Positions 6,134 to 23,076 of a stretch of DNA of 38,230 nt are shown in pieces. The stretch covers positions 1 through 38,230 of the forward strand of contig JAKURV010000021.1 in assembly GCA_022452035.1 (NCBI GenBank), in the 5' to 3' direction. The notes beneath the pieces are model-generated. The model searched no databases, was not told the origin of the DNA, and saw only the letters and a list, made by a program, of their open reading frames with translations. Numbering within the stretch: the stretch's first letter is position 1; each line of letters begins with the position of its first letter. Made by a program: the position numbers and the translations under genes. The stretch comes from Acidimicrobiales bacterium (GTDB lineage Bacteria > Actinomycetota > Acidimicrobiia > Acidimicrobiales > MedAcidi-G1).

Positions 6134-9004
6134 TTAGCCGTCGGAGCGGTCGATAGCCCGGTCGTCGGTGCCTAGGTAACTGGCCACCACCCGGGGGTCA
6201 TTTCGAACCTCGTCCGGGGATCCCTCGGCGATGATCTGCCCGGTCTCTAGGCAGTACACCCGGTCGGATAGGGCCATGATCATCGGCATGTCGTGTTCAA
6301 TTACGACCATAGTGGCGCCTAGTTCCTGCTGGATCTGCTTAAGCAGCGGTCCGAAGGCCTCGGTTTCTCGCTGGGCGATGCCGGCCGTGGGCTCGTCGAG
6401 GCACAGCACCCGGGCGTCAAGGGCCAACAGGCCGGCCAGCTCGACGATCCGGCGGGTTCCGGTCGACAGCTCGGCCACGAAGGCGTTGGCGTAGCGGCCC
6501 AGACCCAGGAAGTCGATCAGGTCGGAGGCGTCGGATGCCTTGGCCCGCTCAGCTCGGATCGACGACGGGAGGAAGAACGCTGCCGGGATCAGCCTTGTCC
6601 TCTCTCGGGCTTCTAGGGCCACCTGGACCGTTTCGTTCACGGTCAGTTCGGGGAACAGGCGGGCTGCCTGGAAGGTTCGACCCAACCCCAGGCGGGCTCG
6701 GTTAGCTGCCGATAACCCGGAGGCGTCGCGGCCGAGGATCTCGATGGTCCCCGTAGACGGGACGAAACCACCGATGGCGTTCATGAGTGTCGACTTGCCG
6801 GCGCCGTTGGTGCCGATGAGGCCGACCACCTCCCCCGGGTGGGCCACGAGCGACACGCCGTCGACCGCCCGGAGCCCCCCGAAGGCCACGGCCACATCGT
6901 CCACGACCAGCGCGGGCCCGTCGATCTTCCGACGGTCCCGTCCACCACCCAGGGCCACGGCCGGTGGTGTCGTCGTGGAAGTTGGTGTCGTATCGGGCAG
7001 GCGCGACTCGGCCCACCGCAGTACGGCGTCCCGGGCTGAGTAGGCGACCTGGATCAGTCCACCGGGGAAGTAGAGAAGCAGGATCAGCAGGCCGATGCTG
7101 GAGGTGAACAGGGGTACGAGTTCGTTATCGGGCCAGAAAGCGGGTAGTCCCACCACCCAGAGGGCACCCACCACTGGGCCCATGATTGTCCCGAGGCCGC
7201 CGATGACCACGATGGACACCAGGCGCAGCGAGTCGCCGATCTGGAACAGCCGCTCCGTGTAGGGGATGTTCTGTACCAGACCACCCAACAGGGCGCCACC
7301 AAGGCCGGCGATGCCACCGGCTATGGCGAAGGCCAAGAGCTTGGTACGGGTCGGGCCGACCGTGTAGGCGGCGGCCGTGGACTCGTTCTCGCGGATCCCG
7401 ATGATCGTCCGTCCGATGCCGGTAGACCGGAGCCGGGAGACCGCCACCAAGAGCAGTACCAGGAACCCGAGGCACAGGTAGTAGTAGGTCCGTTGGCTGG
7501 CCAAGTCGATCGGCCCCAGACTGCCCCGGCGAAACGGGATGCTCTGCTTGAAGCCACCGTTGAACAACGGCCGGCGGAACAGGTACTGCTGAGTGGCCAG
7601 GGCGAAGGCGAACGTGGTGACAGCCAGCAGGAGTCCCCGGACCCGGAGGGCACCCAGGCCGATGAGGGCAGCCGAGGCAGCAGCGACGCCTGCCGCGGCC
7701 AGCATCGAGACCAGGTAGGGGAGGCGGGGAACGGTGATGGAGAAGAACTCCAGGTCGTCACCGATTCCGACCCCGAACTCCAAGCCCCGGTTGAACCCGG
7801 CAGCGATCAGGGCACCGATCCCGGCGAACGCCATCTGGCTGAGAGACAACTGTCCGGCCCAGCCGGTCACGATGGTCATCGAGACGGCGCAGATAGCGAA
7901 GGCCAGGATGCTGGCGTACAACAGGTGGCGTGAGGGGCGGTCCACGATGGCGGGGATTATCAGGGCGATGCCCAGCAGGACGGCTAGCGAAATCGTCGAC
8001 AGGTGCCTCACCCACCAGAACTGTCGGAGGCGCTCGGGGATGGGTCGCCTCCGGGCCGAGAAGGAGAACGACGAGTCGACCTCCCGGCTCCCCCGGCTCT
8101 GGAAGGCAACGGCCACGGCAACCACGACGAACAACACGAAGTCGATCAGGCCGCCCTGGTTAAAGAACACGAACTGCACGTGGGCCTGGACCACACCAAT
8201 GAGGATTCCGGCACCGAGGGCCCGGGGGAAGGAGACCATGCCGGCGATGACCGCGGCGGCCAGAGCTCGGGCCATGGTGCTGGGCCCGAGGTTCTGAAGG
8301 CCACCGACGCTTCCCCGGTTCCCGGACAGCAGGAGCAGGGAGATGGTGGCCAGGAGTCCGGCCACCGTCCAGACAAACAGTTGGACCATCTTCGGGTCGA
8401 TTCCCGACATGCGGGCCAGGTCGGCGTTGCTGGCCGAGGCCTGCACCGTCTGGCCGAACACCGTGCGGTTCAGGAACCAGGACAAGCCCAGGGCCAGGAG
8501 GGGGACGACGACCAGAATGGTCGCCTTCGGCCCGGTGACCCGGACGCCGAGGACGTCGTCCCAGGTGAAGTTCACCGGAATGGGAAAGCGCTGGCTGCGG
8601 TCCCGCACGAGGTCGGGATACGAGGCGAGAATGGCCTGCATGAGCTGGGCGATGCCGATGGTGGCGACCAGCACAATGACCCGGGGGGCCTCGAACAGCC
8701 GGCGGATGACGGCCCGTTCGACCGTTGCCCCGACGGTGATACCGACCAGCAGGCTGATGGGCAGGGCAGCCCAGTAGGGGAAGCCGTAGTTAAAGGTCAA
8801 GAGGGTCATCAAGCCGGTGGCTGGGAGGCCCATATTGCCTACGGCCAGGTTGATGACCCGGGTGGACCGATAGACGAGAACCACGCCGAGGGCCAGCAGC
8901 CCGAAGACCATCCCGTTGACGATGCCGTCGAACCACAGTTGGCGGGTGGTCCAGACAGCCACTACGGCCATCTCACCTCCGACAATGGCCCCCACCTCAG
9001 CCAC
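6134..9004 (-). CDS. LivH-LivM-LivG triple fusion, HAAT-type ABC importer
   Basis: One 956-residue chain carries three subunits that are normally separate. Residues about 20-305 are the LivH permease. Residues about 335-665 are the LivM permease (VTGWAGQLSLSQMAFAGIGA near 379-398; IVVIGGLGTIMGPVVGALWV near 598-617). Residues about 697-956 are the LivG ATPase, with Walker A GTNGAGKS (731-738), signature LSTGT (846-850) in place of the usual LSxGQ, Walker B CLDEPTAG (868-875) and H-loop VIEHD (901-905). Thr/Pro-rich linkers join the parts. Family substrates are branched-chain amino acids, amides, urea or aromatic acids; here phenylacetate or a related compound is inferred from the operon. Its start overlaps the end of the MFS-LivF gene by eight bases. 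GTG 9004, GTG 8995 and ATG 8971 are all possible starts. No binding-protein gene is nearby. Confidence 0.93.
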   Translation of the reverse strand: MAEVGAIVGGEMAVVAVWTTRQLWFDGIVNGMVFGLLALGVVLVYRSTRVINLAVGNMGLPATGLMTLLTFNYGFPYWAALPISLLVGITVGATVERAVIRRLFEAPRVIVLVATIGIAQLMQAILASYPDLVRDRSQRFPIPVNFTWDDVLGVRVTGPKATILVVVPLLALGLSWFLNRTVFGQTVQASASNADLARMSGIDPKMVQLFVWTVAGLLATISLLLLSGNRGSVGGLQNLGPSTMARALAAAVIAGMVSFPRALGAGILIGVVQAHVQFVFFNQGGLIDFVLFVVVAVAVAFQSRGSREVDSSFSFSARRRPIPERLRQFWWVRHLSTISLAVLLGIALIIPAIVDRPSRHLLYASILAFAICAVSMTIVTGWAGQLSLSQMAFAGIGALIAAGFNRGLEFGVGIGDDLEFFSITVPRLPYLVSMLAAAGVAAASAALIGLGALRVRGLLLAVTTFAFALATQQYLFRRPLFNGGFKQSIPFRRGSLGPIDLASQRTYYYLCLGFLVLLLVAVSRLRSTGIGRTIIGIRENESTAAAYTVGPTRTKLLAFAIAGGIAGLGGALLGGLVQNIPYTERLFQIGDSLRLVSIVVIGGLGTIMGPVVGALWVVGLPAFWPDNELVPLFTSSIGLLILLLYFPGGLIQVAYSARDAVLRWAESRLPDTTPTSTTTPPAVALGGGRDRRKIDGPALVVDDVAVAFGGLRAVDGVSLVAHPGEVVGLIGTNGAGKSTLMNAIGGFVPSTGTIEILGRDASGLSAANRARLGLGRTFQAARLFPELTVNETVQVALEARERTRLIPAAFFLPSSIRAERAKASDASDLIDFLGLGRYANAFVAELSTGTRRIVELAGLLALDARVLCLDEPTAGIAQRETEAFGPLLKQIQQELGATMVVIEHDMPMIMALSDRVYCLETGQIIAEGSPDEVRNDPRVVASYLGTDDRAIDRSDG

Positions 9005-11261
9005 CCTCCCGGCCCAGGAACACGGCCCGGGCCAGGTCGTCCCGTTCGAGTAGCTCCCGAGCTGGGCCCTCGAACCGGATCTGTCCCTTTTCCAGGAAAA
9101 TGGCCCGGTCGGCGACCGACAGGGCCACGTTCAGGGACTGCTCCACCAGGATGATGGTCTGGCCGCGCTCTTGGAGCCTTTCGACCAGGGCCAGGAGATC
9201 CTGGACCACCGTGGGAGCCAAGCCCAGTGAGAGCTCGTCGATTAGCAGGATCTCGGGGTCGTGGAGCAGGACCCGGGCCAGGGCCAACATCTGCTGCTGC
9301 CCTCCGGACATGGATCCAGCCCGCTGGCCCTGCCGGTCCGCCAGGTCGGGGAAGAGGTCCAGGACCTCGACAATCCGGCGCTCCACGTCCTCCCGGTCGC
9401 CACGGTGGATATAGCCGCCCATCACCAGGTTCTGGCGGACCGTCATGTCCGGGAAGACGCCGTTACCCCCGGGGAGTTGCTGGATGCCGAGGCGGGACCG
9501 GAGTTGCGGCGAGGTGTAGGTGACGGTGCGTCCGTTGAGCCGGACGACGCCCCGCCGGGGCATACCGAGGCCACTAACCACTCGCAAGATGGTGGACTTA
9601 CCGGCCCCGTTGGTGCCCAGGAGAGCCAACGTCTCGCCCCGGCGCACCTCGAAGCCCACGTCGAACAGGACCTGGACCGGCCCGTAGGAGAAGTCCACGT
9701 TGTTGACTTGTAGGACAGGGATCTCGGAGGGGTCGGACGCCCGTTGCTGTTCGGCCTGCTCGTCGAGCAGTTCTTGGACGTTTAGCGATAGGTCATGGCG
9801 GACGTGGCGAGCGCCCCGGAACATGATCCAGCCACCGATGATCGAGGAAGGGACGGTCAGGACCAAAGTGGTGACCCGGGGTCCCCAACCGTCGGCGAAC
9901 ATGAACGAGATCAGTCCCCCACCCGTTCCCCCAACGAAGAAGATGTAGAGGGTAATGAGCGCCGTCCCGCTACCCCGAAGCCGATAGGGGACGATGGCCT
10001 GGATCAGCGGACCGACCATCGCGAAGGCCGTGCTGAGCATCACCTGGGTGGGTATGGACAGGGCGATGAATAGCGGCACGGTGGGCATGGCCCACTGGAT
10101 GGGCTTGAAGATCGCAGACAGGCCGATCAGGGCACCGACCAGGTGGAGGGTGCGGGTGGGGTTTTCCCGCCACAGCCGGTCGAACTTCGGCCCGACGTAT
10201 ATGAGGGCCAGCACGGTGAACACGCCGGCCGTGGTGGCCCAGGCGCCGCGCTCGAAGGACTCCAGGCCGAACTCGTCCTCCAGCCACAGGTTCTCCAGCA
10301 CCGGTGCGGTGAACAGGCCGAACCCCAGGGCGCTGAACCCGACGACCACCGTCTTCATGGTCCGGATCTGCATGAGGCGTGAGAACGCGGCGTCCATGGA
10401 AACGGGGAGCGGGTCGTCCTCGGTGAACGACTCTTTCAGGACGTCCTCCTTCTCCCAGCGCCCCCGCTGGGGCTCACGGAGAAAAAAGGCAGCCAAGGCG
10501 GCTACGGCCACCGGAATGCCGAGCAGGTAGTAGGCCCACCGCCATCCGTCGATCTCGCCCGGGCCATTAGCCAGCGCGGCGATGCCGCCCACCAGGATGG
10601 GGCTGAGGACGGCGAACAGGCGGCCCACTCCCTTGTCGAGGGCGCCGATCCGACCGCGGATACCGATGGGGTAGGTATCGGCGATGGTCGAAGAGTGGAC
10701 GGGGATGGTGTTGGCCTTGGCGATGCCCACCCCGAACCGGGCCCAGAAGAAGGCGAAGGCGTTCACCGCCATGCCCGAGAGGGCCACCATGGCGGCGAAC
10801 ACGATGCTGGACCAGCCGATGATCGGGATCCGGCGCATCCGATCGGCAGCCCAACCCATGGGGATGGCCCCCAGGACCACGAAGGCACCGGAGGCGCTGG
10901 CGATGAAAGTGATCGTGCCGTCGCTGACCCCGAAGGTGTCACGGATGTCGGGGGCCAAGACGGAGATGGCGGCCGTCTGGAGCTCATCGAGGGAGTTCAG
11001 GACCATCAGGACCAAGAACGTGGCCGCACCACCCCCCATGGCCAGGCCCTTGCGGAGAGAGATTCCCTCGCTCTTCACCCCAGGGAGAAGGTCGTCGGGG
11101 AACAGCACCTGGTCGGCCTGTCCCTCGGCGTGTCGGGCCGCCTCCTCGGCCAGCACGGTGGTAGCCAGAGACGCCGCGCTGTCTGCTCGGCCGCCGTCGC
11201 CCCGATCGGCGCGGTCGCCGGTCGAGACGTCGTTCAGGTCGTCGCTCAGGTCGTCGTCCAT
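8997..11261 (-). CDS. MFS transporter fused to a LivF-type ABC ATPase
   Basis: The 754-residue chain has an Asp/Ala-rich soluble N-terminus (1-70) and then a major facilitator domain of about 12 helices (about 72-485). That domain has the MFS loop motif GWAADRMRR at 136-144, a second-half DRLWR at 361-365, and a charged central loop (about 262-295). A coiled linker (about 490-510) leads to a complete LivF ATPase: Walker A GTNGAGKS (549-556), Q-loop near 594, signature MSGGQQQ (651-657), Walker B ILLIDEL (671-677), and VEQS where LivF proteins usually have VEQN in place of the H-loop histidine. LivF should pair with the LivG part of the next gene, so an MFS protein would be tethered to an ABC importer. 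The MFS substrate cannot be read from sequence. It follows the acyl-CoA dehydrogenase by 22 bases. Confidence 0.92.
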   Translation of the reverse strand: MDDDLSDDLNDVSTGDRADRGDGGRADSAASLATTVLAEEAARHAEGQADQVLFPDDLLPGVKSEGISLRKGLAMGGGAATFLVLMVLNSLDELQTAAISVLAPDIRDTFGVSDGTITFIASASGAFVVLGAIPMGWAADRMRRIPIIGWSSIVFAAMVALSGMAVNAFAFFWARFGVGIAKANTIPVHSSTIADTYPIGIRGRIGALDKGVGRLFAVLSPILVGGIAALANGPGEIDGWRWAYYLLGIPVAVAALAAFFLREPQRGRWEKEDVLKESFTEDDPLPVSMDAAFSRLMQIRTMKTVVVGFSALGFGLFTAPVLENLWLEDEFGLESFERGAWATTAGVFTVLALIYVGPKFDRLWRENPTRTLHLVGALIGLSAIFKPIQWAMPTVPLFIALSIPTQVMLSTAFAMVGPLIQAIVPYRLRGSGTALITLYIFFVGGTGGGLISFMFADGWGPRVTTLVLTVPSSIIGGWIMFRGARHVRHDLSLNVQELLDEQAEQQRASDPSEIPVLQVNNVDFSYGPVQVLFDVGFEVRRGETLALLGTNGAGKSTILRVVSGLGMPRRGVVRLNGRTVTYTSPQLRSRLGIQQLPGGNGVFPDMTVRQNLVMGGYIHRGDREDVERRIVEVLDLFPDLADRQGQRAGSMSGGQQQMLALARVLLHDPEILLIDELSLGLAPTVVQDLLALVERLQERGQTIILVEQSLNVALSVADRAIFLEKGQIRFEGPARELLERDDLARAVFLGREGG

Positions 11262-11283: not shown

Positions 11284-12546
11284 TCAACCGCGGAGAACAT
11301 CTTTCCACGGTGTATTGCGGTCGTGTCCCGGTTCTCGGGGAAGGCCCAGCGAGCGTTCGGCCAGATTGTTCTTCTGCACCTCGGTGGTTCCGCCGCCGAT
11401 CGAGATGCTGAACCGGTTAATAACCTCGGCTTGGATCCAGGTACTGGTCCGGTCGGTGTCGACCATGCCCGCAGGTCCGGCCAACTCGGCGGCCAGGTCA
11501 CCGGTCAAGACCTTGGTGACGGCTGCCATGACTTTGGTCAGTCCCGGGTCGAAGGGCGGTTCGCGCCCGTCGCGGACGGCGGCCTGGATGCGCTGCCCCA
11601 TGAGTCCCTGGAGGCGTTCCCGGGTGATAACAGTGGCCAGGCGTTGGCGGATTCGGGGATCGTCCAGGCCACCGTGTTGGGCAGCCAGGTCTCGCAGCCG
11701 GTCGGAAGCCGGGACACCGCCACCTCGACCGATAAAGGCGGCCTCATTGGCCAGCACGGTGCGGGCGGGTGCCCAGCCTCCATGAATCTCGCCGACCACC
11801 TGGTTTGCTGGGACGCGGACCCCGGTGAGGAAGACCTCGTTGAAGTGAGTTGACCCGTTGGCCTGCACGAGGGGACGAACCTCGACGCCGGGCGACGACA
11901 TGTCAACGAGCAGGAACGTGATGCCACGGTGCTTGGGGGCATCGGGGTCGGTACGGGCCAGGAGGAAGCCCCAGTCTGCGAACTGGGCGCAGGAGTTCCA
12001 AACCTTCTGGCCGTCTACCACCCAGTGGTCGTCGTCTCGAACGGCACGGGTAGCCAGTCCGGCCAGGTCCGATCCAGCGCCCGGTTCGCTGAACAGCTGG
12101 CACCAGGCCACCTCACCGCTGATGAGAGAGGGGAGGAACCGAGAGGTGACGGCCTCGGTGGCGTGGACCTGGAGGGTGGGACCGAGCATTGCGATGGTGG
12201 AACCGATGAACCCAGTGTGGGAGCCGAAGCCAGCCGACTCCTCACGGAAGACGCGCTCGGCCCACGAAGGTCGTCCAGCGCCCCCGAATTCGCTGGGCCA
12301 GGTCAGGCCGGCCCATCCGTGTGCGGCCAGGGTGCGTTGCCAGTCCCGGCCACGCTCGAAGTAAGACCGGGCCTGCTGGTCGTCAGGGAACCCGGACACC
12401 TGCCATGGGTCGATGGCGGCCAGGGGCTCGGCATGTTCGGTTAGGAAGGCGCGTGCTTCAAGCCGGAAGGCCGCTTGGTCGGCCGGCTCGGTGACCGCCC
12501 GGTCAGAGGTGGCGGTGGAATCGCCGGGGAGGTCAGACACGGCCAA
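11284..12546 (-). CDS. Acyl-CoA dehydrogenase (FadE type)
   Basis: This FAD flavoprotein of about 420 residues would oxidise an acyl-CoA to the enoyl-CoA and pass electrons to ETF. It shows WPSEFGGAGR near residue 83, the FAD/substrate segment CQLFSEPGAGSDLAGLATRA (about 148-167), and the C-terminal GGGTTEVQKNNLAERSLGLP. In many family members the catalytic base is a Glu just before the GT of that motif (YEGT). Here the place holds Gly, so the base is elsewhere, the protein pairs with a second subunit, or it has changed activity. The start is TTG 12546 or GTG 12540, with no clear ribosome site. In the paa operon it may act on a phenylacetate-derived or side-chain acyl-CoA, which is inference. 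Confidence 0.88.
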   Translation of the reverse strand: MAVSDLPGDSTATSDRAVTEPADQAAFRLEARAFLTEHAEPLAAIDPWQVSGFPDDQQARSYFERGRDWQRTLAAHGWAGLTWPSEFGGAGRPSWAERVFREESAGFGSHTGFIGSTIAMLGPTLQVHATEAVTSRFLPSLISGEVAWCQLFSEPGAGSDLAGLATRAVRDDDHWVVDGQKVWNSCAQFADWGFLLARTDPDAPKHRGITFLLVDMSSPGVEVRPLVQANGSTHFNEVFLTGVRVPANQVVGEIHGGWAPARTVLANEAAFIGRGGGVPASDRLRDLAAQHGGLDDPRIRQRLATVITRERLQGLMGQRIQAAVRDGREPPFDPGLTKVMAAVTKVLTGDLAAELAGPAGMVDTDRTSTWIQAEVINRFSISIGGGTTEVQKNNLAERSLGLPREPGHDRNTPWKDVLRG

Positions 12547-12633: not shown

Positions 12634-13962
12634 TCAGGCCAGGGGGTCGGTGTCGTCGATCTGCTCGAAGACACGCTTGACCTTGCCCACCTCGGTCCGG
12701 GGCATCGACCCCTCGGGGACCATCTCAACGCCGGCTCGGATGCGGATCCGGTCAGCCAGTACCCGGGTGAGTCGCTCAGTAGCTTCAGGGATCCGGTTAC
12801 CGGCCTCCGCTGTGGCCTCGGCCCGGACCCGGATTTCGGCCATGGTTCCCCGACGGTCAACGACGATGGCGTAGTTGGCACCAACGTCCGGATCGTCCAT
12901 CAGGACGGTCTCGATCTCGCGGGGGTAAACGTTGATACCTCGGATCACCAGCATGTCGTCGGCCCGGCCGGTGAGGCGGGAGATCCGAGTCCAGTGCCGT
13001 CCGGGGACACCGGGCTGGTCCTCGGGGAGGATCCGTGTGATATCTCCGGTGCGGTAGCGGAGGACGGGCATGGCCTCCTTGGTCAGGGTGGTGAGGACCA
13101 GCTCGCCGTACTCGCCGTCGGGCACCGTCTCCCCGGTCTCCGGATCGACAATCTCGGGCAGGAAATGGTCGTCAAACACGTTCAGGGCGCCCAGGTCGTC
13201 GGGGGCTTCCATGGCCACCCCGGGGCCGATGACCTCGGACAAACCGTAGATGTCCAGGGCGGTGTAGCCCCCGCCCCATGCCTCGTTGATGCGGTCACGC
13301 ATACCCTCGGACCACGGCTCGGCACCCAGAATTCCCACCTCGACCCGTAGACGGTCCAAGATTCCCCGTTCCCTAGCCCGCTCAGCCAGGACCAGCGAAA
13401 AAGACGGGGTGGCCGACATGATGCGACTGCCTAGGTCCTCCAGTAACTGGAGTTGCAGGGTGGTGTTCCCACCCGACACGGGCACCACGGTGCACCCCAG
13501 ACGCTCGCCGCCGTAGTGGAGTCCCAGGCCACCGGTGAACAGGCCGTATCCGTAACCGTTGTGGAGGATGTCACCAGGTTGGGCACCAGCCAGCACGAGA
13601 GCCCGGGCATTGACCTCGGCCCACACGGCCAGGTCGTGGGGGGTGTACACGACGATGGTCGGCTTGCCGCTGGTCCCCGAACTGGCATGAAGACGCGTGG
13701 TGGCCTCCATCGGGGAGATAACCATGCCCAGCGGGTACCGCTCCCGAAGGTCCTGCTTGACCGTAAACGGAAGCCGGCCCAGGTCGTCCAACGAGGTGAC
13801 AGACCCCGGGTCTATGTCGGCCAGGCGCTCTTCCCAGAAGGCGTTGCCGCTGCCAGCGAGCCGGACCACCAGATCGGACAGCAGTTGGCCCTGGAGGTCC
13901 TTCTTGGCGTCACCGGCCAGGCCGGCGGCGTCGAGCGGCTCACCGGTCTGCAGAGTGGGCAT
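12634..13962 (-). CDS. paaK: Phenylacetate-CoA ligase
   Basis: PaaK activates phenylacetate with ATP and CoA to phenylacetyl-CoA, the first step of the aerobic pathway, in the cytosol. The 442-residue protein has the AMP-binding P-loop HASSGTSGKPTIVVYT (near 92-107), the PaaK-type DIYGLSEVIGPGVAMEA, the YRTGDITRIL hinge region, GRADDMLVIRGINVYPREIE, and a C-terminal PRTEVGKVKRV with the conserved lysine. Length and motif order match the family, usually about 430-440 residues. It starts at ATG 13962, about 50 bases downstream of the cyclodeaminase-family gene. A related aryl-acid ligase is possible, but the paa genes beside it make phenylacetate most likely. Confidence 0.93.
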   Translation of the reverse strand: MPTLQTGEPLDAAGLAGDAKKDLQGQLLSDLVVRLAGSGNAFWEERLADIDPGSVTSLDDLGRLPFTVKQDLRERYPLGMVISPMEATTRLHASSGTSGKPTIVVYTPHDLAVWAEVNARALVLAGAQPGDILHNGYGYGLFTGGLGLHYGGERLGCTVVPVSGGNTTLQLQLLEDLGSRIMSATPSFSLVLAERARERGILDRLRVEVGILGAEPWSEGMRDRINEAWGGGYTALDIYGLSEVIGPGVAMEAPDDLGALNVFDDHFLPEIVDPETGETVPDGEYGELVLTTLTKEAMPVLRYRTGDITRILPEDQPGVPGRHWTRISRLTGRADDMLVIRGINVYPREIETVLMDDPDVGANYAIVVDRRGTMAEIRVRAEATAEAGNRIPEATERLTRVLADRIRIRAGVEMVPEGSMPRTEVGKVKRVFEQIDDTDPLA

Positions 13963-14015: not shown

Positions 14016-14948
14016 TCACCGGGAACCGGCCCGCACCACCGCACTAGCCACAATGAGGTCCCAGACGGCAAGGCCGACCGACTTGAACAAGGTGACCTCG
14101 TCATTGGACGAACGACCGGCCGTCCCGAGGCACAACTCGGCCAGATCGCCCCGAACCTCGTCGAAGGACCACCGACCCTCATTGGCCGCTGTGATCAGGT
14201 CGCCGGCTTCGTCGGCTGCCGCATGCCGGTCGTCGACAAAAACAGCGGACCGTCGGAGGAGGTCGGCATCGACCTCCCGGCGGGCCGTCGAGTAGGAGCC
14301 GACCAGGCCCACGTGGGTCCCGGGCCGGACGGCGTGGGTGGGGATCACCGGCGTGGCTGATGACGTGCAGCCGCACACCAGGTCGCACCCGGCGGCCTCG
14401 GTCGGGGACCCGGTCACCGCCTCGCGGCCCCCGACCTCGAGGCCGGCCACGAACCGGTCGGTCGAGTCCGCGGTCCGGCCTGACACCACGATCCGTTCCA
14501 CGGTGGGTCGGACGGCCAGCATGGCGGCCACATGGCCCCTCGCCTGGACACCGGTGCCGAAGATCCCCAGCGTGGTGGCATCCGGTCGGGCTAGCAGGTC
14601 GGCAGCCAAAGCCGAGGCGGCCGGAGTCCGCAGGGTGGTCAGGGCCGAACCGTCCAGGGTGGCCGTCGGTACCCCGGTCTCCCGATCGCAGTACAGGTAG
14701 AAGCCATGGATCAGGGGCAGGTCGCGGTCCCGGTTCCCCGACACCACGCTCACCACCTTCACGCCGATCCCAGACGGGGAGACGGCTGGCATCAGGAGGA
14801 AGTCATCTCCCTCACCCAACGAGACCTGAGACCGGGGGTGTAATCCCCCTAGTTCCCTAGACCCCTCCCGCAGGGCCTCGATGCAGGTTGACAGGTCGAC
14901 CACGGACCGAATGGCCTCAGCGTCGAAGTGGGGTAGGGGTCCGGGCAT
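14016..14948 (-). CDS. Ornithine cyclodeaminase / mu-crystallin family reductase
   Basis: The family includes ornithine cyclodeaminase, alanine dehydrogenase and delta-1-pyrroline-2-carboxylate reductase. The 310-residue protein has the substrate lysine in IGVKVVSVV (near 64), the family stretch GVPTATLDGSALTTLRTPAASALAADLLA, and a Rossmann fold with GIFGTGVQARGH (near 128-139) followed by VVSGRT. The next gene upstream is a proline-racemase-family enzyme, and in proline/hydroxyproline catabolism that pairing usually means a pyrroline-2-carboxylate reductase. I favour that over true ornithine cyclodeaminase. GGAGG lies just before ATG 14948, and only 11 bases separate it from the racemase gene. 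Confidence 0.82.
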   Translation of the reverse strand: MPGPLPHFDAEAIRSVVDLSTCIEALREGSRELGGLHPRSQVSLGEGDDFLLMPAVSPSGIGVKVVSVVSGNRDRDLPLIHGFYLYCDRETGVPTATLDGSALTTLRTPAASALAADLLARPDATTLGIFGTGVQARGHVAAMLAVRPTVERIVVSGRTADSTDRFVAGLEVGGREAVTGSPTEAAGCDLVCGCTSSATPVIPTHAVRPGTHVGLVGSYSTARREVDADLLRRSAVFVDDRHAAADEAGDLITAANEGRWSFDEVRGDLAELCLGTAGRSSNDEVTLFKSVGLAVWDLIVASAVVRAGSR

Positions 14949-14959
14949 CTGGCCTCCGG

Positions 14960-15955
14960 TCAGCGAAACAGGAATCCCGATCCGAGCGGATCGTGGGGGT
15001 CGAGGTGGAAGGTGCTGGTGGCGTGACGGTAAGCCGACCCCTCGATGGTGGTCGTCACGGTGTCACCGGTCGTGGCCACCACGCGGCCCGTGAACTCCCC
15101 GCCGGCCACCCCCCGGTTCTGGAACGCCTGGCCGACGTTGACCATCCCGAGGTGGTGGAGGAGGGCCAGGCGGGCCGAGGTCCCAGATCCGCACGGCGAC
15201 CGGTCAACCTGGCCGTCGGCAAAGACGGTCACGTTCCGCTGGTGGAGGGGATCCCCGCCCAGCGTCTCGTGGAGGATGGAGCCATAAAGCCCGGAAAGAC
15301 GGTCATCGTCGGGGTGGTAGCACGAGGGGTGGTCGCCGAGCACCGCACGTACCTCCCGGTCCAGGGCGATCAGGTTGTCGACCTGGTCGGCGGTGGCCGT
15401 GACGTTCAGGTCGTCGATAGCCACCGAGGCGTAGAAGGCGCCCCCGAACGACACGTGAGCCGTGACCAGGCCGAACGACGTCTGAACCTCCAGGTCGGTG
15501 GCCGAGACGTAAGACGGGACGTTGGTGAACCGGACGGAGGCGACGCAACCGTCCACCAACCGGGCGACCGTTGGTAGGCGGCCCGACGGGACGTCGATCA
15601 CCACCGGAACCTCGCCGTTGACCGGAGCGGCGATCCGACCGGTGTCGACGGCCCACGTGGCCAGGGCGATGGTGCCGTGTCCGCAGGCCGTCGAGAAGCC
15701 GTCCTTATGGAAGAACACCACGCCGATGTTGCCGGCGTCGTCGTCCGGGGGGACGACCATCCCGCCGTACATGCCGGCGTGGCCCCGGGGTTCGTGGACC
15801 AGGTACCTGCGGTGGTCGTCTAGGTGGTTCATGGCCCAGGACCGCCGGTCCAGCACGGTAGATCCCCCCATGGGCCCGAGGTCGACGATTCGGAAGGGCT
15901 CTCCGGCCGTGTGGTAGTCGTCGGCCCGGATGCCGTCCAGGGAGTCCCGGGTCAT
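14960..15955 (-). CDS. Proline racemase family enzyme (racemase/epimerase type)
   Basis: The family covers proline racemase, 4-hydroxyproline 2-epimerase and trans-3-hydroxyproline dehydratase. The 331-residue protein opens with DDYHTAGEPFRIV and has RGHAGMYGGMVVPP. Both catalytic cysteines are present: Cys91 in STACGHGT and Cys255 in DRSPCGSGTSARLA. Dehydratases usually replace the second cysteine with threonine, so this protein should be a racemase or epimerase. Its place between paaC and a cyclodeaminase-family reductase, inside a phenylacetate operon, is unusual; the substrate may be proline, hydroxyproline or something new. It starts at ATG 15955, about 55 bases after paaC. Confidence 0.85.
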   Translation of the reverse strand: MTRDSLDGIRADDYHTAGEPFRIVDLGPMGGSTVLDRRSWAMNHLDDHRRYLVHEPRGHAGMYGGMVVPPDDDAGNIGVVFFHKDGFSTACGHGTIALATWAVDTGRIAAPVNGEVPVVIDVPSGRLPTVARLVDGCVASVRFTNVPSYVSATDLEVQTSFGLVTAHVSFGGAFYASVAIDDLNVTATADQVDNLIALDREVRAVLGDHPSCYHPDDDRLSGLYGSILHETLGGDPLHQRNVTVFADGQVDRSPCGSGTSARLALLHHLGMVNVGQAFQNRGVAGGEFTGRVVATTGDTVTTTIEGSAYRHATSTFHLDPHDPLGSGFLFR

Positions 15956-16009: not shown

Positions 16010-16777
16010 CTACCAGGTAGCCGTGGGGTCGAGGGCGAACACCTCGCGCATCCGTTCCAGAAGCGGGGCGAAGGCAGGGCTGCGGTCTTGGCGCCCGTTC
16101 GGGGGAGAGGGGGCGGTGCACGACGGGTCGACCCCGAAGCGGTCCCGGACCCGTCCGGTCCAGGTGGGCAGGCAGGTGTCGAAGGGGGCGGCCGCTACAC
16201 CGGCCGCGACGGCCTCACCCTCGCCGGGTACCGGGTCGAACAAGCTGATGGCGACGGGCAGGAGGTCATCCAGCGCGGCGAGGAGCCGTTCGCGGCTGTC
16301 GGATCCGACCAGCAGAACGTCGAGCAGGCCGTCGGCGTGGCGTCGGTGGAACCACTCCTCGGAGGCCGCCCGGACAGCCGCTTCGGCCAACGGGGCCAGG
16401 GTGGACTCGGACACCAGATCCCATCGGAGTTCCTCGGCGGCGTCGTAGAGCCAGTGCCGGACCAGGGCATGGCCCCAGTCCTCGGACGGCTCCTCCACCA
16501 GTCGGCAGCTACGCCAGTCAGCGGGGTCACGGTGGAAGGCCAACTCGTCGATGGCCGGGTCCCCGACGCCTGTCGGGTCGCCGTCTCCGGCCACGATGGC
16601 GTACAGGGATGCCGCATGCCCCAACTCGTCCTGGCTGATGGAGCAGAAGGCCAGGTCCTCCTCAAGAAATGGGGCCACGCCAATCCACTCGGCGTGCTGC
16701 TGGCCCATCAGGTGCTCGTCGTCGGCGAAGGCCAGGAGGAACTCCCGGACGCCGTCGGTCAGCCCGGAAGCGGTCAC
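16010..16777 (-). CDS. paaC: Phenylacetyl-CoA epoxidase subunit PaaC
   Basis: PaaC is the non-catalytic, ferritin-like partner of PaaA in the 1,2-epoxidase. The 255-residue protein shows FAFADDEHLMGQQHAEWIG-type helices (near 15-33), FCSISQDELGHAASLYAIV (near 44-62) and ASEEWFHRRHADGLLDVLL, matching the family order. The GTG start overlaps the paaB stop by four bases, so the subunits are translationally coupled. It ends the overlapping paaZADBC block; 54 bases follow before the racemase gene. Length is close to the usual 250 residues. Confidence 0.93.
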   Translation of the reverse strand: MTASGLTDGVREFLLAFADDEHLMGQQHAEWIGVAPFLEEDLAFCSISQDELGHAASLYAIVAGDGDPTGVGDPAIDELAFHRDPADWRSCRLVEEPSEDWGHALVRHWLYDAAEELRWDLVSESTLAPLAEAAVRAASEEWFHRRHADGLLDVLLVGSDSRERLLAALDDLLPVAISLFDPVPGEGEAVAAGVAAAPFDTCLPTWTGRVRDRFGVDPSCTAPSPPNGRQDRSPAFAPLLERMREVFALDPTATW

Positions 16778-17052
16778 CGGTCATCCTCCTTGCGAAGTTG
16801 TCGGCGGCGGACTGCGATGCGCTCGCCATCATTGTGCCGGTGGGGCTTGTCAGCGTTGGGGGCCACGAAGTCCGCGTCACCGATGATCAGGTCCTTGCGG
16901 TCCACCAGCCACAGCCGGTCGCCTTCGGCTCGCCGGAGGTAGCTCTCCCGGGCCAGGACCAGGGCCATCTCGGGGTCGGGCGCGTCGAGCGAGCCGGCGT
17001 GCCGGTACTCGTCCCGCCCGTCCTTCTTCAGGAACACCTCGTAGCGCTTCAT
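16774..17052 (-). CDS. paaB: Phenylacetyl-CoA epoxidase subunit PaaB
   Basis: PaaB is the small structural subunit that holds PaaAC heterodimers together. The 92-residue protein starts MKRYEVFLKKDGRDEYRHAGSL and continues DPEMALVLARESYLRRAEGDRLWLV, all typical. The open frame runs back to 17127, but ATG 17052 matches the family start and overlaps the paaD stop (ATGA). It overlaps paaC by four bases at its end. Confidence 0.93.
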   Translation of the reverse strand: MKRYEVFLKKDGRDEYRHAGSLDAPDPEMALVLARESYLRRAEGDRLWLVDRKDLIIGDADFVAPNADKPHRHNDGERIAVRRRQLRKEDDR

Positions 17053-17522
17053 GCCCGGCCTACAGACGACGACCGCATGACCTCGACGACCTCGGAACAC
17101 GCCGGACAGGAGTGCACGGCTCGGCAACGGCTGGGGCCGAACAGCGAGGTTTCGGTCGTTGGGGCGTCACAGCGGGGGCAGGACACTGGTTCGACACCGA
17201 TCCGGACAGCCACTGTGAACTCCTGGGCCATGGCCTGCCGGGCCTCGTCGCTTACCCGGTCGACGGTCCACGCCGGGGCACCCAGCCACCGAACGTCGCA
17301 CGATGAGACGCCGTCGACCGACCCGACGACGGCCCGGACGTCATTGGCGATCATGGACAGCGCCGGGCAGCCGGAGAAGGTGGGGATGAGACCGACGACC
17401 ACGTGTCCGTCCAGTGTGACGTCCAGCGTCTCCAGCAGGCCGAGATCCACGACGGAGATACCCGGGTATTCCGGATCGTCGACGCTGGCGATGGCGGCCC
17501 GCACCCGCTCGACGGTCGTCAT
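17049..17522 (-). CDS. paaD: PaaD, MIP18-family iron-sulfur maturation factor
   Basis: PaaD is thought to help mature the Fe-S or diiron parts of the epoxidase system. The 157-residue protein has a DUF59/MIP18 domain (about 1-100) with VDDPEYPGISVVDLGLL and the reactive Cys52 in FSGCPALS. A C-terminal zinc-ribbon-like part follows, with CPRC (115-118) and CPAC (139-142). This matches full-length PaaD. ATG 17522 overlaps the paaA stop by four bases (ATGA); a longer frame to 17585 would intrude into paaA and is rejected. Confidence 0.92.
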   Translation of the reverse strand: MTTVERVRAAIASVDDPEYPGISVVDLGLLETLDVTLDGHVVVGLIPTFSGCPALSMIANDVRAVVGSVDGVSSCDVRWLGAPAWTVDRVSDEARQAMAQEFTVAVRIGVEPVSCPRCDAPTTETSLFGPSRCRAVHSCPACSEVVEVMRSSSVGRA

Positions 17523-18463
17523 ACCGCTGCCCCCGCTGGTCCCGGAGCGCGTTCTGGAGCGTGGTCCATGGCCTGGCGTACCCAACCGGTGTCGACCCAG
17601 TTGGCGGCGGCATCGGCAATACGACGGGCCGAGTCCGGTCCGCCCATAGCCAGGGTGCGTCGCAGCGGCTCCCAGTCGATGGGCCCGGAGGTCCAGGTGC
17701 CGGCCTCCGGGTCATGGACGAGGTCAGGGTCGGGGACGGTAAATCCGTAGGAGATCAGGAGCGGCGCGAACTTCTGGACCCACCGGGCCCGTAGGACCTC
17801 GTTGCGTTCCGACTTGATGTGCCATCGCAGCAGCACGTCGTCGGGCTGTGAGTCGGGTCCGAAAAGTTGGAGGGCCGGCCACCACCAGTCGTCCAACGAG
17901 GCCTGGAACAGGGCCCGCTGGATCTTGGTTCCCTCGGCGATCAGGAGCATCCGCTCCTCGCCCATCCGCATGTGGAACCCCTCCTCGGTGATGATTCGCT
18001 TCAGGATTCGGCGGTACGGGCCATAGGAGCAGTTCTTGAACACGGCCTGCTGGGTAGCCAGGGCGGCCGCGTCGACCAGGAACGAGATGGCCACCTGGTC
18101 GCCCCAAGTTTTGGCCCGGTAGTGGAAGACGTTGTGGAACCTGGACCTACCAGCGAAAAGGTCTTCCAGCATCTTTCGTCGGTGTTTGATCCCCATGTCG
18201 GCGGCCACCATGTACAAGAGGTGACCATGGCCGATCTCGTCCTGGGTTTTGGCCAGCACAGCCATCTTGTGCCGGAGGCCGGGAGTCTTTGGAATCCAGT
18301 CCCGCTCGGTCAGCCCGCCCATCAGTTCGCTGTTGGCGTGCATCTCGATGAAGGCGAAGACGGCCTGCCGGTAGGCGTCGGGCATGTCGTCGTCGACCTC
18401 CACAATCCCTCCGTCATCCAGGAAGGCCTCGAAGGCCACCATGGAGGCCCAAGACCGTCCCAT
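17519..18463 (-). CDS. paaA: Phenylacetyl-CoA epoxidase catalytic subunit PaaA
   Basis: PaaA carries the diiron centre that inserts oxygen into the ring of phenylacetyl-CoA. The 314-residue protein has the ferritin-like ExxH pairs DEIGH (75-79) and EEGFH (160-164) plus the upstream Glu in AFIEMHANSELMG (near 40). The surrounding segments KTQDEIGHGHLLY and CSYGPYRRILKRIITEE are highly conserved. The open frame extends to 18634, but the family start is ATG 18463, which overlaps the paaZ stop by one base (TGATG). All four following genes overlap, so PaaA, D, B and C are made from one message. Confidence 0.95.
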   Translation of the reverse strand: MGRSWASMVAFEAFLDDGGIVEVDDDMPDAYRQAVFAFIEMHANSELMGGLTERDWIPKTPGLRHKMAVLAKTQDEIGHGHLLYMVAADMGIKHRRKMLEDLFAGRSRFHNVFHYRAKTWGDQVAISFLVDAAALATQQAVFKNCSYGPYRRILKRIITEEGFHMRMGEERMLLIAEGTKIQRALFQASLDDWWWPALQLFGPDSQPDDVLLRWHIKSERNEVLRARWVQKFAPLLISYGFTVPDPDLVHDPEAGTWTSGPIDWEPLRRTLAMGGPDSARRIADAAANWVDTGWVRQAMDHAPERAPGPAGAAV

Positions 18464-20517
18464 CAGGCCATCTCCTCGTCCGGGGCACCGTTCACGCCGG
18501 GCCGGTTGGCAACCATGGTCAGGACGTCGTAGGCGGCGACCACCTCGTCGTCCTGGTTGGAGACCTGGGCGTCCCACACCACCTCGCCGTAGCCGGCCCC
18601 GGCCCGCAGGGTCTTTTGCTTCGCGGTTAGCCAAACGGTCAGCGTGTCACCGGGGTAGGTGGGCTTGGCGAACCGGCAGCGGTCTACCCCGTAGTTAGCC
18701 AGGACCGGTCCCGGATCGGGCCATACGAAGAGGCCGGCGGCCAGGGAGAGCACCAGGTAGCCGTGGGCCACCCGGCCGCCGAAGATGGGGCTGGCCGCCG
18801 CGGCCTCCTCGTCCATGTGGGCGTAGAAGTGGTCACCGGTGGATTCGGCGAAGTCCTCGATATCGGCCAGGGTGACGGTGTGTGACCCGGTGCGGACGGC
18901 CGTGCCGACTTCCAAGTCGTCGAAGTGGAGCTTGAACGGGTGACCCCGGTCGACGTGGCGAGTGGCGCCGGGCATCCACTGGCCGGTGACCGCGGTGAGT
19001 ACGTCAGGAGAGCCCTGTACGGCCGTGGTCTGGAGGTGGTGAAGGACGCCACGAAGGCCACCCATCTCTTCGCCGCCACCGGCCCGTCCGGGCCCACCGT
19101 GGACCAGTGCCGGGAGCGGCGACCCATGGCCCGTGCTGGTGGCGGCCACCGAGGCGTCCACTACGTGGACCCGGCCGTGGTGGGATGCGATGCCCAGCGT
19201 CAGGTGGGCGGCCTCGTCGGCATCGCCGGAGTAGATAGAGGCCACGAGGCTGCCCCGACCCAGGGCGGCTAGATGGATGGCGTGATCGGGGTCGTCGTAG
19301 CCGACCAGGGTGCAGACCGGGCCGAATGCCTCGACGTCGTGGACCGGACCCGCCTCGGAGTCGCTGGCCCGGAGCAGGGTGGGGGCCAGGAACGCTCCGA
19401 CGGCAGGGTCCACGTCGCGGAAGGTGCAGGTGTCGACCACCACGTTGGTCGTCGTGCACAGGTCGGATATGGCAGCCCGTACCTCGTCCCGCTGCCCGGT
19501 GCTGACCAGTGCCCCCATGTCGGTGTCCGGGTTCGACGGGTCACCGACGCGGACCTCGGCTAGGGCGGCGGCCAGGGCTTCGGTAGCCGTCTCCAGGTGG
19601 GATCGGGGTACCAGGGCCCGACGGATGGCCGTGCACTTCTGTCCTGCCTTAACCGTCATCTCCCGGACCACCTCGGCTACAAACAGGCCGAACTCGGGGG
19701 TTCCCGGTTCGGCAGACGGCCCGAGGAGGGCGGCGTTCAGAGAGTCGGCCTCGGCGTTGAATCGGACCGACCGGTCGACAATCCCGGGATGGGTCCGGAG
19801 GAGAGCTGCGGTGGTGGCCGATCCGGTGAAGCCAACCGAGTCCTGTCCGTCGAGGTGGTCGAAGAGGTCGCCGACGCCGCCACAGATCAACTGGAGAGCA
19901 CCGTCAGGGAGGATGCCGGAGTCGACGATCAGACGCACCATGGCCTCGGTCAGGAACGCCGTGGGGGTGGCCGGCTTGACGATGGTGGGCAGGCCGGCCA
20001 GGAGCGCCGGGGCCAGTTTCTCCAGGGCTCCCCAGCATGGGAAGTTGAAGGCGTTGACCTGGACGGCGACGCCCCGGCGGGGGGTGGCCACGTGGGCGGC
20101 GAGGAAGGAGCCGTCCTGAGCCAGGACTTCCGGTTCGCCCTCTAGGAGGACGTGGCCGTTGGGGAGTTCTCGCCGTCCTTTCGAGGCATATCCGAGGAGT
20201 ACTCCGGCCCCGCCCTCGATGTCGATCCACGAGTCGGCCCGGGTGGCCCCGGTCGCCGTGGATAGGTCGTAGAGGTGGTCCTTCTCGGTCAGAAGGTGTT
20301 GGCCGAGGGCCTTGAGCAGGGCGGCGCGTTCGTGGAAGGTGAGAGCCCGCAAAGCCGGCCCGCCGACATGGCGGGCGTGGCCGACGACGGCTGAGAAGTC
20401 AATGCCGTCGCTGGAGACCCCGGCTACGGGTAGGCCGGTCACCGCGTGGTGGGTGGCAAAACCCTCCCCGGGCGGCGAGTGCCACCTACCGCAGATGTGG
20501 CTTTCGAGCGTTCGCAC
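18463..20517 (-). CDS. paaZ: PaaZ, oxepin-CoA hydrolase / aldehyde dehydrogenase
   Basis: PaaZ opens the oxepin-CoA ring and oxidises the resulting aldehyde to 3-oxo-5,6-dehydrosuberyl-CoA. The 684-residue protein has an aldehyde dehydrogenase domain (about 1-520) with NAD-binding VGFTGSATTA (228-237), Glu256 and catalytic Cys295 in AGQKCTAIRR, matching E. coli PaaZ numbering. A MaoC-like hydratase domain (about 525-675) has STGDHFYAHMDEEAA with the catalytic Asp at about 562 and the hot-dog motif FGGRVAHGYL. The N-terminal half lacks nothing obvious. It is the first gene of the minus-strand operon. GTG 20517 has a GGGAGGG site three to five bases upstream, which is rather close. Confidence 0.95.
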   Translation of the reverse strand: MRTLESHICGRWHSPPGEGFATHHAVTGLPVAGVSSDGIDFSAVVGHARHVGGPALRALTFHERAALLKALGQHLLTEKDHLYDLSTATGATRADSWIDIEGGAGVLLGYASKGRRELPNGHVLLEGEPEVLAQDGSFLAAHVATPRRGVAVQVNAFNFPCWGALEKLAPALLAGLPTIVKPATPTAFLTEAMVRLIVDSGILPDGALQLICGGVGDLFDHLDGQDSVGFTGSATTAALLRTHPGIVDRSVRFNAEADSLNAALLGPSAEPGTPEFGLFVAEVVREMTVKAGQKCTAIRRALVPRSHLETATEALAAALAEVRVGDPSNPDTDMGALVSTGQRDEVRAAISDLCTTTNVVVDTCTFRDVDPAVGAFLAPTLLRASDSEAGPVHDVEAFGPVCTLVGYDDPDHAIHLAALGRGSLVASIYSGDADEAAHLTLGIASHHGRVHVVDASVAATSTGHGSPLPALVHGGPGRAGGGEEMGGLRGVLHHLQTTAVQGSPDVLTAVTGQWMPGATRHVDRGHPFKLHFDDLEVGTAVRTGSHTVTLADIEDFAESTGDHFYAHMDEEAAAASPIFGGRVAHGYLVLSLAAGLFVWPDPGPVLANYGVDRCRFAKPTYPGDTLTVWLTAKQKTLRAGAGYGEVVWDAQVSNQDDEVVAAYDVLTMVANRPGVNGAPDEEMA

Positions 20518-21567: not shown

Positions 21568-22134
21568 ATGATCCTCTCCGACCGCTCCCTTCGCGAAGAG
21601 ATCGCTGCCGGGCGCATCGTGATCGAACCGTTCGACGACGCCTGTGTGCAGCCCTCGTCGATTGACCTGCACCTGGACCACCGTTTCCTGGTCTTCCGGA
21701 ACCACACGATGGGCTACATCGACGTACGGACGGACCTCACTTCGCTTACCGAGCAGGTGGAGGCGGCTGAGGACGACCCATTCATTCTCCACCCGGGCGA
21801 GTTCGTGCTTGGCTCAACCTCAGAGAGGGTGGTGGTTCCCGACGACCTGGTGGCTCGCCTAGAGGGGAAATCCAGCCTCGGACGACTGGGCCTCCTCATC
21901 CACTCGACGGCCGGTTATGTCGACGCCGGGTGGGACGGTCAGCTCACTCTGGAACTGTCCAACGTGGCCAGCCTTCCCATCACCCTCTACCCGGGGATGA
22001 AGATCGGACAGATCTCGTTTGTCCGGATGACGACGGCCGCCGATCGGCCGTACGGTTCCAGCGAACTGGGGTCCAAGTACCGCGGCCAGGATGGCCCCCG
22101 GCCTAGCCGCTACTGGGAGAACTTCGACCAGTGA
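21568..22134 (+). CDS. dcd: dCTP deaminase, probably bifunctional (dUMP-forming)
   Basis: Dcd turns dCTP into dUTP, and in some bacteria straight to dUMP, supplying thymidylate synthesis. The 188-residue protein has QPSSIDLHLD (28-37), the P-loop-like LEGKSSLGRLGLLIHSTAGYVDAGWDG (98-124) with catalytic Glu129 in LTLELSN, and a C-terminal YGSSELGSKYRGQDGP lid. HSTAG, where the E. coli enzyme has HVTAH, matches the bifunctional Mycobacterium and Methanocaldococcus type. The stop overlaps the following RidA-family gene by four bases (GTGA), so a nucleotide enzyme is coupled to aromatic-acid genes. Confidence 0.93.
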   Translation: MILSDRSLREEIAAGRIVIEPFDDACVQPSSIDLHLDHRFLVFRNHTMGYIDVRTDLTSLTEQVEAAEDDPFILHPGEFVLGSTSERVVVPDDLVARLEGKSSLGRLGLLIHSTAGYVDAGWDGQLTLELSNVASLPITLYPGMKIGQISFVRMTTAADRPYGSSELGSKYRGQDGPRPSRYWENFDQ

Positions 22135-22538
22135 GCGATCCGCTCCCGGACACCCGGGGAGCATTTCCGCACGCACGCGCTGCAGGAGGCCTGGTCCACG
22201 TGTCGGGAACCAGCGCCCGGAGGTTCGACGACACCGTCGAAGGTGCCGACGTCGGAGACGATGGGACAGTCCGGCTGGACCCGGCCGTCCAGTCCCGGGC
22301 CGTGTTGGTCAACGTCGAGCGGGTTCTGGCCGACCACGGGCTGGACCGCGGCGACCTGGTTGATGCCACGGCCTTCCTGGTGGACATAGATCACTTTGAC
22401 GCCTGGAACGAGGCGTGGGCCGAGTTCTTCACCGGTCGGGAGGCCCCTGCCCGGACCACAGTCGCCGTACGGGCCCTTCCCCATCCCCACCTGCTGGTTG
22501 AGGTGAAGGCCACGGCGCTCATGAGGAACGGGGGCTGA
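22131..22538 (+). CDS. 2-Aminomuconate deaminase (RidA family)
   Basis: This 135-residue RidA/YjgF-fold protein matches the 2-aminomuconate deaminase subgroup (NbaF/AmnD) rather than generic RidA: FPHARAAGGLVHVSGTSARR (12-31), DGTVRLD, a repeat of VLVNVERVLADHGL, FLVDIDHFDAWNEAWAEFF and LPHPHLLVEVKATA. It would convert 2-aminomuconate to 4-oxalocrotonate with release of ammonia. It starts at GTG 22131 inside the dcd stop and is followed three bases later by the dioxygenase gene, so the pathway context supports the specific call. Confidence 0.85.
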   Translation: MSDPLPDTRGAFPHARAAGGLVHVSGTSARRFDDTVEGADVGDDGTVRLDPAVQSRAVLVNVERVLADHGLDRGDLVDATAFLVDIDHFDAWNEAWAEFFTGREAPARTTVAVRALPHPHLLVEVKATALMRNGG

Positions 22539-23072
<534 letters not shown>

Positions 23073-23076
23073 GGCG

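Follow-up and report, generated by a model that had tools for sequence, protein, structure and literature searches.

On the reverse strand of the window analyzed here, a stretch of 38,230 nucleotides from contig JAKURV010000021.1 of an Acidimicrobiales bacterium (assembly GCA_022452035.1), a single open reading frame (ORF; 8997–11261) joins a carrier of the major facilitator superfamily (MFS) to a LivF-type ATPase of the ATP-binding cassette (ABC) class, next to a gene that codes for LivH, LivM and LivG in one chain. Our analysis reveals that this fusion is no isolated oddity, and that it belongs to a family with two architectures. We propose, at a probability of roughly 0.45, that it forms part of a binding-protein-dependent Liv importer bearing on its LivF a Spinster (Spns)-like carrier, which would still work and serve the same process as the importer. 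Among the major transporter classes, ABC transporters and MFS carriers are regarded as distinct both in what powers them and in how they work. The fusion, conserved and with a junction that hardly varies in length, offers a natural experiment on whether a carrier barrel and an ABC motor can influence each other. In Acidimicrobiales and some Streptomycetaceae, the family moreover indicates an uptake system of which we found no study.

The ORF is a single frame of 754 residues that begins with ATG and has no internal stops. Pfam recovers in it MFS_1 (PF07690), with the best stretch at residues 91–384 (E 2.2e-30), followed by ABC_tran at residues 534–676 (E 1.6e-27); the top NCBIfam match is LivF (residues 516–750, E 3.9e-56), at 190 bits against a curated cut-off of 441 for that model. 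The AlphaFold2 model, made from 20 sequences (mean predicted local distance difference test score, pLDDT, 78.7; predicted template modeling score 0.71), places the MFS helices first and then an ABC ATPase fold, and the top Foldseek match of the LivF part is 1ji0 of Thermotoga maritima (template modeling score by target 0.91, 39% identity). The original prediction of an unbroken MFS frame with a complete LivF at these coordinates is thus borne out by the open frame, Pfam, NCBIfam and the model. The pLDDT falls below 50 at residues 1–27 and 48–65, and the real start codon may lie downstream of the annotated ATG, given the low values over residues 1–27 and the weak conservation of residues 1–77.

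A homologue search of 61 genomes, the source genome (a 2.18 Mb draft of 65 contigs, 96.1% complete) included, recovered near-full-length matches to the fusion, all at E = 0 and free of stops, in the source genome, in 15 of the 16 other congeneric genomes and in 11 of the 20 other genomes of the family; the sole congeneric genome without a match in this search is G004, which is 85% complete. Further full-length relatives occur in other families of the order and in Yinghuangia and Embleya (Streptomycetaceae). The MFS and LivF parts share one frame in two single-contig genomes, G042 (which has both of the types, A and B, defined below) and G038 (type B), as they also do in a record of Embleya that is described as complete. 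When the MFS part alone was searched against 396 genomes of the phylum, it matched at 45 places in 24 genomes, namely the source genome, 13 others of the order, one of the class and nine of the phylum; 20 of the unmatched genomes among those shown belong to the same order and a further 352 misses are unlisted, so that the search yields no rate for the order. All 45 places were read: 39 continue into LivF within the same ORF, and six have no LivF in the stretch read (L174, L184/L209, L190/L205, L193, L197 and L203), which in one case is just 4.2 kb long. The proteins at L174, L193, L197, L203, L205 and L209 are MFS proteins akin to the fused domain with no ATPase in the stretch read, and constitute natural controls for MFS function. 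Neither a stop nor a frameshift separates the two domains, and close relatives have the fusion as well, the two points on which the original prediction had staked itself. An assembly or frame artefact, for which we found no support beyond the origin of the window in a 65-contig draft, is rejected with near certainty, as numerous independently made assemblies have the fusion too, and so do records that are complete or consist of one contig.

The search for proteins with both domains and the mapping of their genome contexts, as had been suggested, returned many relatives that fall, by five domain profiles built here, into two architectures: type A, with MFS–LivF accompanied by LivH–LivM–LivG as in the window, and type B, with LivH–LivM accompanied by MFS–LivF–LivG; a separate LivG gene is found in a few loci. 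The ORFs comprise 82 of MFS–LivF, 35 of MFS–LivF–LivG, 14 of MFS only and three with two MFS matches, a tally in which some loci were fetched twice and several of the 17 MFS-only or double-MFS ORFs are ordinary MFS proteins from loci fetched through LivF. The MFS domain is carried by 91 of 174 distinct LivF units, and it is N-terminal to LivF in every fused ORF, this order being common to both types.

In the window, the ORF of the partner gene overlaps that of the fusion by 8 bases (8997–9004), given the use of the partner's first start, and the gene order upholds the proposed link between the fusion and the LivH–LivM–LivG of the next gene. PF02653 matches two stretches of the partner protein, as befits LivH and LivM permeases, and the nucleotide-binding motifs of a Liv-type importer are present in both ATPase domains (SGGQ, DE and EQS in LivF; STGT, DE and EHD in LivG). 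The pairing of LivF with LivG, which had been put forward as a supposition, is now likely, because relatives exist in which MFS, LivF and LivG form one chain (the 35 ORFs counted above, some from loci fetched twice). As for the LivG signature, STG[T/S] occurs in the window's clade and its relatives, whether or not the MFS domain is present, and one of the two ATP sites of the importer may be atypical on this account. We considered this degenerate signature as a mark of MFS coupling and rejected it, since MFS-free sisters of the same group share it; the signature pattern went unmatched in 30 of 37 ordinary LivG rows, which makes the comparison with ordinary systems incomplete.

For LivF, 125 complete units were thinned at 80% identity to 98 rows, from which a quick tree was made that leaves many forks open. 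A single group of 57 rows (support 91, not starred) takes in all of the 44 fused ones, and it is nested in a starred group of 60 (support 98). The presence of the MFS domain takes six changes over this tree, which fits, and does not prove, a single origin of the MFS–LivF fusion with several losses. Between types A and B the mean identity is about 25% for the MFS parts and about 52% for the LivF parts, and within each type the distances of the two parts are correlated (r 0.868 in type A, n = 42; r 0.659 in type B, n = 31), a value reached by none of 999 permutations in either case. This Liv clade often has its domains fused, and its MFS-free sister importers include ones in which LivF–LivG and LivH–LivM each form one chain (L211, L214–L216, L218–L220 and others).

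The MFS part is not decaying, because across 120 pairs from 16 genomes of the genus the median ratio of nonsynonymous to synonymous substitution rates (dN/dS) is 0.089 for residues 78–484, equal to the 0.089 of LivF, so that purifying selection acts alike on both halves; the ratio rises to 0.16 over residues 485–515 (108 usable pairs) and to 0.31 over residues 1–77 (117 usable pairs). The junction between the MFS and LivF parts, measured as the distance between profile ends, is 15 residues long with a standard deviation (sd) of 1.4 (n = 91), which makes it the least variable of the fused linkers measured: LivF–LivG spans 37 residues (sd 17.8, n = 31) in units with the MFS domain, with sd 24 (n = 12) in those without it, LivM–LivG 42 residues (sd 20, n = 45) and LivH–LivM 44 residues (sd 3.5, n = 83). 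Such a nearly fixed length is what one expects where geometry matters. In the AlphaFold2 model an unbroken helix (residues 426–508) runs from the last MFS helices into the junction.

Structurally, the top VIA-align match of the model is human SPNS2 (8ex4; Z 39.8, root-mean-square deviation 3.0 over 395 residues), in keeping with a Spns fold, and SPNS1 and HnSpns are listed as well, along with further MFS proteins whose Z exceeds 30; this list is filled by the MFS part, and the assignment of the ATPase stands on Foldseek and sequence. The nearest PDB sequence is HnSpns (6e8j, E 1.7e-6). For HnSpns, the passages of PMC9440201 available to us describe a D41–R122 pair, an R42–E129 pair in which E129 is the main proton switch, and a D87–R91–D142 relay. 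Aligned with it, the window's protein has the D41–R122 pair as D92 and R175, and the motif A relay as D140, R144 and D195. Conservation was counted over 42 representatives of type A and 31 of type B: D92 is kept in 33/42 and 25/31, R175 in 31/42 and 30/31, D140 in 34/42 and 31/31 and D195 in 41/42 and 31/31, and R144 is invariant (73/73).

To look for binding-protein genes, we grew a profile from Peripla_BP_6 proteins encoded in the genomes under study and counted, in loci above 9 kb, ORFs within about 6 kb on either strand. Outside the window's clade, such an ORF lies beside 39 of 47 fused units (24/29 of type A and 15/18 of type B), a count in which units within one locus may share a binding protein. 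In the window itself no binding protein was found among the 20 ORFs scanned with Pfam (ORFs beyond 31050 being among those outside that scan) or, with the profile, among all ORFs of at least 80 residues. The source genome does encode, outside the window, an orphan Peripla_BP_6-like candidate of 520 residues (G000:C48:3495-5054, locus L232), whose five best matches outside 20 co-fetched loci are all binding proteins that neighbor a type A fusion (the best at 124 bits, with 40.5% identity over 153 residues). Its orthologues (E 1e-120 or better) occur in 22 of 37 family genomes, 21 of the 27 with a type A fusion and one of the 10 without (Fisher p 0.0003); the genera g2 and g6 lack both genes, so that the events behind this association are not independent. 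The only genome with the orphan and no fusion is G004. These data suggest that the window's importer might be served by a binding protein encoded elsewhere, with the orphan as a candidate partner.

Briefly, we advance the following plausible mechanism. The importer would consist of LivH, LivM and LivG from the partner gene together with LivF from the fusion. Were LivF to pair with LivG under LivH and LivM, the MFS barrel would sit in the membrane beside these permeases, held there by the short helix. The MFS part would still move a solute of the importer's chemical class, i.e., the organic or amino acids of the surrounding catabolic genes, and might thereby provide a second, co-located uptake route or allow the release and re-uptake of intermediates. 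The short helical junction could let the MFS and ABC cycles influence each other. In favor of this reading we count the recurrence of the open frame across genomes, the MFS–LivF order common to both architectures, the grouping of all fused rows in the LivF tree, the correlated distances, the equal dN/dS of the two halves, the nearly fixed junction, the fold match to SPNS2, the retained equivalents of D41, R122 and the motif A relay, the binding proteins beside most relatives outside the window's clade and the catabolic neighbors.

Several observations weigh against a working carrier that serves the importer's process. First, HnSpns E129 on transmembrane helix 4 is replaced by K182 and R42 by E93 in the window, because of which the canonical proton coupling of Spns is not kept, and the label "Spns-like" is apt rather than that of a canonical proton-coupled Spns. 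At position 182, 26/42 type A representatives have K, and 21/31 of the type B ones have either K or R. On sequence grounds, much of the carrier machinery is retained with its main Spns proton switch replaced. Second, 13 of the 57 rows in the LivF group have no MFS part (11 LivF–LivG and two LivF), and the importer can therefore, by this comparison, probably work without it. Third, shared descent alone can account for the correlated divergence of the MFS and LivF parts. Fourth, the modeled junction helix has moderate confidence (pLDDT 75–77 at residues 491–510) in a model that comes without an inter-domain error estimate. Fifth, in none of the 10 loci of the window's clade does a binding protein lie beside the operon (a 22-bit match on the opposite strand at L052 not being counted), and the orphan candidate is missing in six of the 27 fusion genomes (G007, G008, with fragments only, G015, G016, G024 and G028). 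Finally, the genes around the fusion vary between relatives, and some of them are unrelated (DnaG, TerC, fructose bisphosphatase and a rhamnosidase), housekeeping genes included. The two replaced residues also appear to covary, as all 48 rows in which residue 182 is basic have E93, and none of the 15 rows that lack E93 has a basic 182 (Fisher 4e-9); the association is not significant when allowing for descent by independent pairs (median p 0.125), and we treat it as a lead and not as a result.

The loss of the proton switch, with R42 exchanged for E, counts in favor of the alternative that we rank second and consider rather unlikely, namely that the MFS part no longer transports and instead binds a solute or senses the state of the membrane, switching LivF through the short helix. 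The nearly fixed junction with its modeled helix and the invariably N-terminal position of the MFS part would suit such a device, and MFS barrels fused to signaling parts do exist, as in the Sensor Kinase-MFS Fusion family (TC 2.A.1.34), mentioned in the passages of PMC3924187 available to us. Against it, residues typical of MFS carriers (D140, R144, D195, R175, R338 and R429) are kept, and we saw no sign of a closed MFS cavity.

Third, and less probable again, two independent transporters of one operon might have been joined for co-expression only, with no functional contact between them. The MFS-free sisters (LivF–LivG with LivH–LivM, or LivF with LivH–LivM–LivG) and the general tendency of these operons to fuse many parts would be expected on such an account, and the LivH–LivM linker is also fairly constant. 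However, of the fused linkers measured, the MFS–LivF junction is the most constant in length, the fusion has persisted at a mean MFS identity of about 25% between types A and B, and a split MFS gene beside LivF was not seen among the 45 phylum-wide matches, those that are not fused having no LivF in the stretch read.

A bolder reading, which we hold to be doubtful, is a hybrid of primary and secondary transporter, in which the short helical junction would couple the MFS barrel mechanically to the ABC part of the Liv system: ATP hydrolysis by LivF–LivG might drive or gate the MFS part, or an ion gradient acting through the MFS part might tune the importer, and ATP-driven movement would take the place of the lost Spns proton switch.

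Among known systems, the Liv/HAAT importers of branched-chain amino acids (LivFGHM plus a binding protein) share with the window all four of LivF, LivG, LivH and LivM in adjacency, and a binding protein stands beside most fused relatives, whereas the MFS domain on LivF, the single LivH–LivM–LivG chain and the lack of a binding-protein gene found at the window locus set the latter apart. Spinster carriers, a family of lipid or lipophilic-solute transporters (human SPNS2, SPNS1 and HnSpns), provide the best structural and PDB sequence matches and share the motif A relay with the equivalents of D41 and R122; in contrast, the protein described here has the exchanges of E129 and R42, an attached ATPase and a place among catabolic genes. 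The ArsA/ArsB system has an ATPase that works with a carrier able to run without it as well; it involves neither a LivF-type ATPase nor an MFS fusion. By analogy, CamABCD and CamM of Rhodococcus jostii RHA1, likened here by description and not by sequence, would be the nearest functional precedent, as an ABC transporter and an MFS carrier that both serve a single catabolic process; as far as the passages of PMC8399759 at hand describe, they are two separate transporters that take up different cholate metabolites. MFS carriers fused to other functional units are represented by TC 2.A.1.34, of unknown function according to the passages of PMC3924187, which also treat ABC-2–peptidase fusions, and by the fused NarK1–NarK2 (passages of PMC7997004); in these two the MFS carrier is joined to a kinase or to another carrier rather than to an ABC ATPase, and the likeness is again one of description, not sequence. 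No MFS–ABC fusion is described in the passages on fusions of these last two papers, and the word "fused" is absent from the main text of the MsSpns preprint PMC13192786. Searches of open-licence literature, which leaves most subscription papers outside its scope, yielded no description of an MFS–LivF or any MFS–ABC fusion, as judged from titles and the opening of abstracts, in agreement with the earlier statement that no characterized example was known.

Table 1. Features of the fusion, its partner and the adjoining genes, in positions of the window.
Feature	Position	Strand	Basis and remarks
LivH–LivM–LivG partner gene, 956 residues	6134..9004	-	Pfam, NCBIfam, own profiles
LivG ATPase domain, partner residues 699–945	6170..6910	-	Pfam, NCBIfam, own profile; signature STGT
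LivM permease domain, partner residues 346–655	7040..7969	-	Own domain profile; PF02653
LivH permease domain, partner residues 24–302	8099..8935	-	Own domain profile
LivF-type ABC ATPase domain, fusion residues 516–750	9012..9716	-	Walker A, SGGQ signature, Walker B DE, EQS switch region; Foldseek 1ji0
MFS–LivF junction, fusion residues 485–515	9717..9809	-	Modeled helix extending from MFS part to residue 508
MFS domain, Spinster-like, fusion residues 78–484	9810..11030	-	PF07690; 6e8j HnSpns; SPNS2 8ex4; dN/dS 0.089
Fusion N-terminal tail, residues 1–77	11031..11261	-	Weakly conserved, start codon uncertain; median dN/dS 0.31; low pLDDT
Acyl-coenzyme A (CoA) dehydrogenase	11284..12546	-	Pfam; directly upstream of fusion, 22-base gap
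PaaK-like CoA ligase	12634..13962	-	Pfam, NCBIfam
OCD/mu-crystallin family protein	14016..14948	-	Best NCBIfam match pyrroline-2-carboxylate reductase, below cut-off
Proline racemase family protein	14960..15955	-	Pfam; best NCBIfam match below cut-off

The substrate class of the importer is likely to be organic or amino acids, and the neighboring genes in the window and 20 proteins from five loci of relatives point to no single substrate. The acyl-CoA dehydrogenase gene adjoins the fusion in 16 same-genus loci (L001 and L021–L035), and OCD and proline racemase family genes lie directly upstream of it in L042–L046. Among the 20 proteins are cytochrome P450, CoA ligase, short-chain dehydrogenase, enoyl-CoA hydratase, AtuA and TetR, and two of the 20 matched nothing. 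Further upstream on the minus strand of the window, two ORFs of 420 and 158 residues (22110–23845) have no Pfam match at E 0.001. The proline racemase family translation has the cysteine motifs ACGHG and SPCGSG, which we take, by a rule of thumb, to be racemase/epimerase-like rather than dehydratase-like. The occurrence of its gene beside that of the OCD family (14016–15955, minus strand) may reflect a pathway for hydroxyproline or proline isomers. Lastly, NCBIfam identifies phenylacetate genes for PaaC, PaaA and PaaZ at 16010–20517, upstream of the transporter genes and on the same minus strand.

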